Part shown: in pieces, positions 3,711 through 35,418 of the stretch | Layout of the letters: every line of letters starts with the position of its first letter | How positions within the stretch are numbered: position 1 is the stretch's first letter | Source: Sphingobacteriaceae bacterium | GTDB lineage: Bacteria; Bacteroidota; Bacteroidia; B-17B0; Aurantibacillaceae | Direction: 5' to 3' | DNA: 54,719 nt | Assembly (NCBI GenBank): GCA_023251775.1 | Contig: JAHEYC010000015.1 | Span: 1 to 54,719 of the forward strand | Position numbers and translations under genes: made by a program | The notes under the pieces: model-generated | Seen by the model: the letters and a program-made list of their open reading frames with translations, nothing else | Database searches by the model: none | What the model was told of the DNA's origin: nothing

Positions 3711-4350
3711 ATTCTTTTATCAATGTTCTTATATCAGTTATCAAACGCGCCACCTCAACGCTATCGGTTCCATCGTAAAATCCACGAATGTGTTTTTCTT
3801 TATCAATCAAAGCAAAATTTTGCGTGTGAATAAAATCATCCACGCCTCCGTCACCCTCCTCTACGGTAAGCATAAAACTTCTTCGCGTAAGTTCGTAAAG
3901 ATCTTTTTTACTTCCTGTAGCAAACCACCATTTATCATCATTTACTCCGTAATTCTTAGCATGCTCAGCCAATTTCGGAACAGAATCCGTTTCAGGATCT
4001 ACAGTTAACGAAAGTATCATAAGATCGTTGCGATCTTTGAACGCTTTATACACGTGAGTAAGTTCGCGGTTCATAATAGGACAAATACTTTTACAGGTTG
4101 TAAAAAAACTATTGCTCACATATATTTTTCCCTTAAGATCTTCTTGTGTAAAGGTTTTTCCATACTGATTCACAAAAGAAAAATCGGCAATGGTATGATA
4201 GGTTGTATCATCGGTCTTTAAAGCGTGTTTTGGTCCAAAATAAGGAAGCGTTCTTAAAGGCTGATCCTCTTTTTTATTGTAAAAATACCATCCTGCAAAA
4301 ACACCCAACACAAGAACAATAAAAATAACGACCAAATTCTTTGAATTCAT
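3682..4350 (-). CDS. SCO1/SenC family copper chaperone, membrane anchored
   Basis: 222 residues from ATG 4350. A GTG at 4368 would add six residues but the ATG gives a clean N-terminal anchor (5-23: V-V-I-F-I-V-L-V-L-G-V-F-A-G). Thioredoxin-like domain with the SCO copper ligands C86-x-x-x-C90 (TTCKSICP) and H175 (DFIHTQ). SCO proteins insert copper into the CuA site of cytochrome c oxidase or act as thiol-disulfide exchangers in the envelope. First gene of a two-gene unit with the TlpA-like gene. Confidence 0.9.
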   Translation of the reverse strand: MNSKNLVVIFIVLVLGVFAGWYFYNKKEDQPLRTLPYFGPKHALKTDDTTYHTIADFSFVNQYGKTFTQEDLKGKIYVSNSFFTTCKSICPIMNRELTHVYKAFKDRNDLMILSLTVDPETDSVPKLAEHAKNYGVNDDKWWFATGSKKDLYELTRRSFMLTVEEGDGGVDDFIHTQNFALIDKEKHIRGFYDGTDSVEVARLITDIRTLIKEYEYKDKHTL

Positions 4351-34185: not shown

Positions 34186-34251
34186 ATGGTAAGCTTATTT
34201 TTACAATTAATTGCAACTACTTGTTTAGCAGTAATTTAAAATTGTGCAAAA

Positions 34252-34278
34252 TGTATAATACAAATTGTATAATACAAA
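34252..34278. repeat. Tandem operator-like repeat upstream of the STAND ATPase gene
   Basis: Direct repeat TGTATAATACAAA at 34252-34264 and 34266-34278, 14 bases apart. The second unit with its preceding T is the perfect odd palindrome TTGTAT-A-ATACAA (34265-34277), and it contains the -33 element. This is the layout of a repressor or autoregulator site. Confidence 0.55.
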
Positions 34279-34295
34279 ATGTTGTAGTACTTTTG
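34265..34295 (+). promoter_or_regulatory. Promoter of the STAND ATPase gene, predicted leaderless
   Basis: -33 TTG at 34265-34267, 20-base spacer, -7 TACTTTTG at 34288-34295. Only four bases separate the box from the GTG start at 34300, so transcription should begin at or next to the start codon. Confidence 0.6.
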
Positions 34296-34299
34296 GGGG

Positions 34300-35418
34300 G
34301 TGAACCCGTTCTTAATAAATACATATATAGCGCCGGAGTATTTTTGTGATAGAGAAATTGAAACAAAAACGCTGATCTCTACCATTCACAACCAAGGCAA
34401 CACCGCCTTCTTTGCACAACGCAGGCTTGGTAAAACCGCGCTCATACAGCATACCTTTTATCTACTTCGTAAAAAAAAAGCGATCTGCATTTATCTGGAT
34501 ATTTACGCAACACTAAGCTTAAAAGATCTTACCAATCAATTGGCCAATGCCATTTACAAAGAGTTTCCTATCACAAAAACTATCGGTAAACGATTCATGG
34601 AAGCCATCAAAGTTCTTCGTCCCGTTATAAGCATCGATGAATTATCAGGTTCGCCTGAGCTAACCCTGGATATCACACAAACAAAACAATTCGAAAAAAC
34701 AATACCCCAACTTCTACAATTCCTAGATGAGCAAAACGTAAAAGTGGTAATAGCCATTGATGAGTTCCAACAAATACTTAATTATCCCGAAAAGAATATC
34801 GAAGCCATTCTAAGAACCGCCATACAACAATTAAAGAACGTGAACTTTATTTTTTGTGGTAGCAATCAACATCTAATGCATCAAATATTCCGAAGCGGTA
34901 AAAGTCCGTTCTATGCCAGCACCAAAAATATCAATCTTCAAAAAATAGATCGTACCCTTTATAGCAACTTCATTAAAAAACATTTCGAACATCATAAATT
35001 CAAGGTCACTCAAGAGTCCATCGATCTTATCCTTGATCTTACGCACGGGCACACCTATTACACTCAACTTCTTTGTCACGAAATTTTTGCAAACGGCATA
35101 AAAACCATTAGATCTCAAACTATTTTATTAGCTCTTGGCATTATCCTATTAGATAACCAAGGCACTTACTTCCAATACCGCAATCTTTTAACAGCAGCGC
35201 AATGGAATTTATTAAAGGCAATAGCCAAAGAAGAAAAAATAAGTCAGCCTTACGCTCAGGATTTCATTTATAAATACCGTTTAGGCAACGCTGCCAGCGT
35301 AAAACGTTCCATCGAATCATTACTCGAAAAAGAAATGATCTATCATAATATCTCTGAAGCTATGCCTTACTACGAAGTTTATGATAAATTTTTAATGCGA
35401 TGGCTACAAAGAACCTGA
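34300..35418 (+). CDS. STAND/AAA-type ATPase with C-terminal winged helix (PF01637-like)
   Basis: 372 residues, GTG start; the opening M-N-P-F-L-I-N-T-Y-I-A-P-E-Y-F-C-D-R-E fits the family's N-terminal N-P-F...F-x-D-R-E signature, so the start is secure. Walker A R-R-L-G-K-T at about 42-47 (first Gly of the P-loop replaced by Ala), Walker B V-V-I-A-I-D-E-F near 150-157, sensor I-F-C-G-S-N-Q near 185, then helical lid and winged helix (about 280-372). Relatives are ATPases of unknown role, often in mobile or defence settings. Here it stands alone with no partner gene and no mobile marker. Its promoter overlaps tandem palindromes. Confidence 0.82.
   Translation: MNPFLINTYIAPEYFCDREIETKTLISTIHNQGNTAFFAQRRLGKTALIQHTFYLLRKKKAICIYLDIYATLSLKDLTNQLANAIYKEFPITKTIGKRFMEAIKVLRPVISIDELSGSPELTLDITQTKQFEKTIPQLLQFLDEQNVKVVIAIDEFQQILNYPEKNIEAILRTAIQQLKNVNFIFCGSNQHLMHQIFRSGKSPFYASTKNINLQKIDRTLYSNFIKKHFEHHKFKVTQESIDLILDLTHGHTYYTQLLCHEIFANGIKTIRSQTILLALGIILLDNQGTYFQYRNLLTAAQWNLLKAIAKEEKISQPYAQDFIYKYRLGNAASVKRSIESLLEKEMIYHNISEAMPYYEVYDKFLMRWLQRT

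Follow-up and report, generated by a model that had tools for sequence, protein, structure and literature searches.

Phage CI-type repressors and the repressors of the LacI and TetR families have an operator over their own promoter, and the specificity residues of their recognition helices change with that operator. Orc1/Cdc6 initiators bind repeated sites. ATPase_2 proteins, to which the protein described here belongs, are widespread and have no stated function in the records examined; the PDB names of the archaeal members PABY2304 (2qen) and SSO1545 (2fna) give none. IniR of mycobacteria, like our protein, combines an AAA+ domain resembling that of SSO1545 with a DNA-binding end, but unlike it has 818 amino acids and a MalT-like sensor domain, and words beginning with palindrom- or autoregulat- are absent from the main text of its description (PMC5760070).

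Here we analyzed a stretch of 54,719 nt from Sphingobacteriaceae bacterium (GCA_023251775.1, contig JAHEYC010000015.1), hereafter the window, in which an ATPase_2-type gene follows a tandem array of palindromes (Table 1). We consider it quite probable that this gene is a solitary self-addressed regulator, whose product is predicted from comparative sequence analysis to bind its own tandem palindromes and thereby to shut off its own transcription. Our searches of the open-licence PMC literature found no description of self-matched operators of ATPase_2 proteins.

Table 1 Features of the ATPase locus and their coordinates in the window.
Feature	Position	Strand	Basis
Operator array: three 13-bp palindromes, period 14, half-site ATACA / TGTAT	34244–34284		Sequence; architecture common to relatives
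−33 TTG, inside the array	34265–34267	+	Sequence
−7 box TACTTTTG, fitting the Bacteroidetes consensus TAnnTTTG	34288–34295	+	Sequence; consensus as given in PMC7366714
372-aa AAA+ ATPase of the ATPase_2 type, winged helix at the C terminus; GTG start, probably leaderless	34300–35418	+	Pfam, AlphaFold2 model, folds
Walker A stretch AQRRLGKT, residues 39–46	34414–34437	+	No variation at R41, G44 or K45 among 70 sequences
Walker B stretch VVIAIDEFQ, residues 149–157	34744–34770	+	D154 and E155 invariant
Residues 330–336 (NAASVKR), start of the recognition helix, top co-variation with the half-site	35287–35307	+	AlphaFold2 model, co-variation

The coding sequence ends with a TGA (35416–35418), and the GTG at 34300 is its likely translation start, because the N-P-F just downstream is conserved in the relatives and the frame is closed four codons upstream. 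The protein matches Pfam PF01637 (ATPase_2) with an E-value of 1.4e-15 and 58.2 bits against a gathering cut-off of 33.2, and 69 of the 70 members of our alignment match the same entry at E 0.001. The Pfam scan found no other domain in the window protein, and no nuclease or transposase domain in it or in the relatives. The stretches AQRRLGKT and VVIAIDEFQ, which we take to be the Walker A and Walker B motifs, contain K45, D154 and E155, all invariant in the alignments of 24 and of 70 sequences. The AlphaFold2 model, computed from the 70-sequence alignment of the window protein and its relatives, has a mean pLDDT of 92.9 and runs from an ATPase domain through a helical region to a winged helix, with nothing else; in this model the recognition helix, assigned from the secondary structure, is residues 331–343. 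The best structure matches are the two archaeal ATPase_2 proteins, PABY2304 (Z 24.5, rmsd 4.0, 334 residues aligned) and SSO1545 (Z 23.8, rmsd 4.4, 337 residues aligned), which are alike in fold over the whole length and match weakly in sequence (E 3.7e-6 and 3.8e-4, 17–18% identical). Orc1/Cdc6, TnsC and NLR proteins come next. The AAA/STAND ATPase with a winged helix that a preliminary description had read from the sequence is thus borne out by the PF01637 match, the ORC/STAND-like fold and the C-terminal winged helix of the model.

Three more specific identities were considered for this protein and rejected. As an Orc1/Cdc6 protein it reaches 18.3 bits, against an NCBIfam equivalog cut-off of 311. 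As a STAND receptor of the Avs/NLR kind, it has neither sensor repeats nor an effector domain in its 372 residues, by Pfam and the AlphaFold2 model. A known anti-phage system was rejected on the weakness of the PADLOC matches, which for the window protein consist of PDC-S27 only (E 1.8e-4, 18.5 bits) and for the relatives are mostly weak as well (best 4.2e-10). We file the protein as an ATPase_2 member.

Upstream of the gene, direct reading and a pattern search find a 13-mer, ATGTATAATACAA / TTGTATAATACAA, at 34251–34263 and 34265–34277, a step of 14, the second copy being a perfect dyad with arms of six bases on either side of one central base. These are the two 13-base repeats and the palindrome over the −33 box of the preliminary description, and both are present; the count is what changes, for the array consists of three palindromic units in register, GTGCAAAATGTAT (34244–34256), ATACAAATTGTAT (34258–34270) and ATACAAAATGTTG (34272–34284). 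Two kinds of dyad, offset by 7 bp, coexist in the array, and the half-sites analyzed below (ATACA-NNN-TGTAT) belong to the kind other than the one first described. The array spans the −33 box and nearly reaches the −7 box, the gap between the two boxes being 20 bp. The −33/−7 consensus is TTTG and TAnnTTTG (PMC7366714), and the −7 box, which ends four bases before the GTG, fits it as originally read. The array is beyond chance: its score was reached by none of 3000 dinucleotide shuffles and by none of the 2716 further stretches of 110 nt taken from the window. Because the 13-mer pattern is palindromic, its count in the window is inflated (16, with 5.4 expected). The source genome holds one gene of this ATPase type at the thresholds used, and the two-unit pattern, allowing up to three mismatches, occurs in the 3.6-Mb draft at the window gene and at one poor three-mismatch site.

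Relatives were gathered with a 24-row alignment from the best 80 of 552 named loci and from class-level genomes, 98 of 395 of which had a match at E 0.001. Removal of 17 partial or duplicate entries from 201 profile matches left 184 family genes, and 183 of them (one with a short or masked upstream region was omitted) were scored for a two-copy tandem palindrome, with a score of at least 22 in the 110 bp upstream counted as an array. Such arrays stand upstream of 140 of the 183 family genes, which come from across Bacteroidota, compared with 21 of 699 other ORFs in the same loci, whose start was taken as the first ATG, and with 24 of 549 shuffles. Of the 122 family arrays scoring at least 23, 118 have a period of 14 (76 arrays) or 15 (42 arrays). 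The half-site letters are diverse, with 35 types among 138 confident genes, including ATACA, ACGCA, TTACA, ATACC, ACACA, TAACA and ACGTA. Absence of the repeats from orthologues had been named in advance as evidence against regulation; they are present in the relatives, at the same place and with different letters, and the regulation idea is not refuted. The period tracks the protein, since a residue at position 316 is present in all 92 period-14 proteins and replaced by a gap in 40 of 46 period-15 proteins, with a one-residue gap adjoining in five of the six exceptions; this relationship may go back to few events on the tree.

A box of the form TAnnTT(T/C)G was found within 115 bp in 112 of the 138 confident genes, against 453 of 3680 shuffled upstream regions. 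The box lies 0–30 nt past the array in 74 of these 112 genes and overlaps it in 29; the array is wholly downstream in six, and the two are further apart in three. A strict TAnnTTTG ending at most 8 nt before the start occurs in 52 of the 184 family genes and in 18 of the 699 other ORFs, for which the first ATG again served as the start. For comparison, about 3.7% of the 5' UTRs of Bacteroides thetaiotaomicron are shorter than 10 nt (PMC7366714). The short distance from box to start is frequent in the family, so the leaderless layout of the window gene recurs among its relatives, and the proposed leaderless or near-leaderless start is predicted to be a common family trait.

We searched 18 draft genomes for the two-unit array with up to three mismatches, five for the ACGCA type, nine for the ATACC type and four for the ATACA type. 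The sites lie at the ATPase gene, except for one three-mismatch site in each of three genomes (G000, G002 and G013). Further array sites are a second copy in G013, where the gene is duplicated, and, in G103 and G201, one site each immediately past the gene; in the ATACC search, three genomes each gave a single match to a reversed control pattern. In a scan of all 138 loci allowing up to four mismatches in 20 letters, an array with the same half-site was found directly past the stop codon in 19 (L035 is one of them), against one other match in 738 kb. In 19 of the 138 loci the stop codon is likewise followed by a single copy of the gene's own palindrome with at most one mismatch, compared with 13 of 7358 background stretches. 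By the same scan 119 of the 138 loci, the window copy among them, have no downstream array. The gene that follows may point either way, and the downstream arrays are therefore not simply its promoters; some of them could end transcription. Judged by eye, some, such as those of L005 and L019, are hairpin-like and followed by a T run.

Any family member at all was found in 20 of the 60 genomes searched, the source genome included; of the 36 other genomes in its genus, seven have a copy at least 53% identical. The window copy sits between an unassigned gene following porQ and an M49 peptidase gene. The neighbors of the close copies differ, with rsmD in G002, cas1-like genes in G014, G023 and G013, and others again in G035, G028 and G012 (gene names assigned by eye). 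In L004, L006 and L008, close relatives of the window gene, a cas1-like gene (by eye) comes immediately after the ATPase gene, with a further array separating them in L004 and L006. Patchy presence and changing neighbors agree with the accessory gene proposed in the preliminary description. Distant subfamilies keep stable places within this genus, before purB, mpl or a DEAD-box helicase gene (names by eye). No partner gene recurs: 485 neighbor proteins, from ORFs of at least 90 aa, fell into 444 clusters, the largest of which is represented in 3 of 78 loci. Among these ORFs in the 78 loci there is accordingly no conserved partner of the toxin–antitoxin kind, nor does a regulator gene recur beside the ATPase. 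Clustering of homologues in defense islands, which the preliminary description proposed to check, found no recurrent neighbor in these loci to rest on.

The statement that relatives often occur in mobile contexts did not hold. Relatives turned up in 20 plasmid records among 72,556, in 2 phage records among 50,697 and in 6 IMG/VR loci, and two further plasmid searches added few new ones; phage or plasmid cargo was rejected, the gene being rare on both. Of six plasmid-borne relatives inspected by eye, one from Parabacteroides and five from other phyla, only that on the Vibrio plasmid L293 shows clear 14-bp direct repeats, the others being doubtful. That relative, 28% identical, has CTAAATACTAA direct repeats at 14-bp steps upstream of position 3986. 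Three 'plasmids' of Bacteroides sp. CACC 737 (NZ_CP059406, NZ_CP059411 and NZ_CP059410) carry like segments of SusCD and ATPase genes, which look like assembly variants of chromosomal DNA and were excluded from use. One more inspected copy adjoins integrases, and in L027 (G043) the ATPase gene lies about 50 bp past a tRNA-like gene (by eye), a possible insertion site.

These distributions bear on a different reading of the locus, as a minimal mobile element whose ends are the arrays. The ATPase would bind these ends as in TnsC or initiator–iteron systems, and their role at the promoter would be secondary. The arrays past the stop codon, with a single match elsewhere in 738 kb, the patchy presence at differing sites in the nearest relatives and the fold likeness to TnsC and Orc1/Cdc6 would fit such an element. 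We nevertheless regard it as unlikely, given that no nuclease or transposase domain was found, that most loci, the window copy included, have no downstream array, and that three groups keep their stable places before purB, mpl and the helicase gene. Precise empty sites were not found at the M49 peptidase loci, at the rsmD loci or at the G013 duplicate. In 28 other loci with the M49 peptidase gene of the window site, a search of the flanks (up to ~1.5 kb) with the ORFs of the window found no such ATPase and no common neighbor order, so that no clean empty site can be drawn; at the rsmD site of the nearest relative, G002, the ATPase is present in G002 alone among 30 loci. The sole recent duplication seen, that of G013 (L008 and L028), has 95% identity over the array and the beginning of the ATPase gene, up to a contig end, and on into the upstream gene. 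Its identity runs well beyond the array, and we therefore read it as a segmental duplication and rejected it as an element border.

The half-site letters were compared with the protein sequences. For this analysis, four genes (two loci with two copies each) were omitted, and 42 of the remaining 180 were dropped for a weak array, leaving 138; the confidence thresholds were chosen by us, and some of the 42 may truly be array-free. When the 366 protein columns are ranked by their entropy-corrected mutual information with the half-site, 336 and 332 come out on top; both are on the recognition helix, at a distance of four residues. Of 83 genes with R336, 81 have A at half-site position 5, and of 31 with K336, 29 have C or T there. 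Position 4 is C in 106 of 114 genes with R or K at 336 and another letter in 22 of 24 genes with other residues at 336. At position 2, A332 is accompanied by T or A (54/55), S332 by C (49/61), R332 by T (8/8) and P332 by A (4/4). The window protein, which was itself in the set, fits this code with R336, A332 and the half-site ATACA.

To control for kinship, we took four approaches. One was a tree from residues 1–296 only, leaving the winged helix out. The ten columns that co-change most with the half-site on its branches are 336, 330, 331, 332, 333 and 334, together with 109, 357, 285 and 170. Six of the ten fall within 330–336 (P 4.5e-10, for a stretch chosen after seeing the list) and five within the whole helix 331–343 as fixed by the model (P 5.5e-6), while the four columns outside 330–336 count against the self-addressed reading. 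Independent pairs, in sign tests with small numbers, ran for and against at about 5:0 for 336 and position 5 (median p 0.06), about 6:0 for 332 and position 2 (0.03) and about 4:1 for 336 and position 4 (0.38). Between distant relatives, the nearest neighbor by residues 330–336 predicts 3.40, 3.34 and 3.19 of the five half-site letters at below 40, 35 and 30% identity, respectively, which ranks this stretch first of 366 seven-residue stretches; the corresponding figures are 2.42, 2.35 and 2.32 for random pairs, and 2.82, 2.30 and 2.37 when the neighbor is chosen as nearest by the whole ATPase domain. A held-out draw across the phylum comprised 36 unused genes, 25 of them with a confident array by the same thresholds; some are kin of clades already used, so the draw is not wholly independent. 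In these genes the position-5 code held in 10 of 10 (R or K), the position-4 rule in 24 of 25 (counted by eye) and the position-2 code in 15 of 20 (S or A), with four of the five failures in the genus with TIR fusions described below. Taken together, the operator letters shift along with the recognition helix of the ATPase across the phylum, suggesting that each copy recognizes and controls its own gene by way of a partly readable protein–DNA code.

The same data weigh on the possibility that another host transcription factor or a nucleoid protein binds the palindromes and the ATPase gene is only its target. Palindromes at a promoter usually signal some repressor, which speaks for this possibility, but among the 13 genomes with at least two confident copies none of the 19 same-genome pairs shares a half-site, and one common host factor therefore does not read all copies. 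Sharing among all pairs is 5.9%, so that about one of the 19 would be expected to match, and the figure alone is no proof of cross-talk avoidance. Since the half-sites moreover track the ATPase's own helix, and no regulator gene recurs in the 78 loci, we judge a host factor to be quite unlikely. We consider it very unlikely that an ORC-like ATPase nucleates on the array as on an origin or partition site, to act on the chromosome, with autoregulation as a by-product. The tandem spacing and the likeness in fold to Orc1/Cdc6 and DNA filament ATPases are in keeping with such a site. Not in keeping with it are that a genome can have several copies with different addresses, that most of the genomes searched have none, and that the array is tied to the −7 box. 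That the palindromes are RNA hairpins of an attenuator or terminator, as the hairpin and T run of some downstream arrays (L019, L005) might suggest, is scarcely credible, for the upstream array ends before the −7 box in the 74 genes counted above, so that its transcription from that box is unexpected, and RNA structure would not follow a recognition helix.

We return to the self-addressed regulator as the preferred reading. The simplest account of the co-variation of helix and operator, of the differing letters of copies within a genome and of targets close to a single locus is that the ATPase recognizes its own array directly; the co-variation argues strongly for this putative binding. The ATPase very probably represses its own gene, as the array overlaps the −33 box and lies close to the −7 box, although by position alone it may act in activation instead, and the six genes with the array wholly downstream of the −7 box count against the preferred reading. 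Computation establishes the array, the promoter, the fold and the helix–operator co-variation, and the gene combines what marks an autorepressor, an operator over its own promoter and co-varying recognition residues. The autoregulation first proposed from this one locus has gained strong comparative evidence, with promoter arrays in most of the family and paired change of helix and half-site pointing to it. In the mechanism that we propose, subunits would bind the ATACA half-sites of the three palindromes through residues 330–336. Steps of 14 bp would set the sites about 1.3 turns apart, and with 14 or 15 bp per palindrome the row of subunits would wind round the DNA. The bound row would cover the −33 box, come near the −7 box and shut off its own leaderless message. 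ATP binding or hydrolysis, or a signal, might alter the occupancy; the conserved Walker residues hint at control by ATP.

In another class, in the genus g215, the module heads an open frame of 1319–1876 residues in 8 of 10 cases. TIR_2 is above the Pfam cut-off in all three fusion copies scanned (L346, L347 and L348), WD40 or pentapeptide repeats follow the module, and L346 has a NACHT-like stretch at 25.8 bits, just below the cut-off of 26.7; a sequence search of the PDB with the middle part of the fusion protein gave no match. Five of seven rows of this genus pass the array thresholds, with AT-rich half-sites that make them less sure. Palindromes were also observed upstream of the fusion genes L346–L349. 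The defense-type role raised in the preliminary description draws some support from this TIR/NACHT-like/WD40 fusion, in one genus only, and finds no confirmation in the PADLOC results or the neighbors. That the ATPase is a stress or defense sensor that keeps itself low, as the fusion and the patchy spread would favor, is a reading that we put forward tentatively and at somewhat less than even chances. More doubtful still is a wider view, in which single-gene self-addressed elements would occur across the phylum, each would read only its own palindromes, ahead of the gene and at times behind it as well, paired changes in residues 330–336 and the half-site would make new addresses, and the fusion would be an autoregulatory immune-type switch or a selfish unit, of a sort absent from the papers searched. 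If true, several differently addressed copies could share a genome without cross-talk, and a self-locked module would have been placed ahead of a TIR/NACHT-like/WD40 receptor.

For ATPase_2 proteins, the code offers a candidate molecular activity for part of the group. It predicts binding sites from sequence by residue-to-base rules and supplies matched protein–operator pairs that are mutually distinct. The fusion with TIR and WD40 hints at how such proteins may tie to immune-type signaling, and arrays at both ends of some genes prompt the question of whether such a gene is retained, or moved, as one unit.

Among known systems, Orc1/Cdc6 matches the window protein in fold over the whole length (Z ~18); unlike Orc1/Cdc6, the window family is patchy and has several differently addressed copies in some genomes. 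STAND/NLR proteins are also alike in fold (Z 17.2 for NRC4, 15.9 for RPP1 and 15.3 for CED-4), and it is the distant fusion proteins, with the module joined to TIR, a NACHT-like stretch and WD40, that resemble them. With the CI, LacI and TetR repressors, the family has in common the operator over its own promoter and the recognition-helix residues that co-vary with it. It differs from them in that the putative binder is an ORC/STAND-like ATPase, and in that the operators are tandem arrays of 14- or 15-bp period, sometimes present at both ends of the gene.
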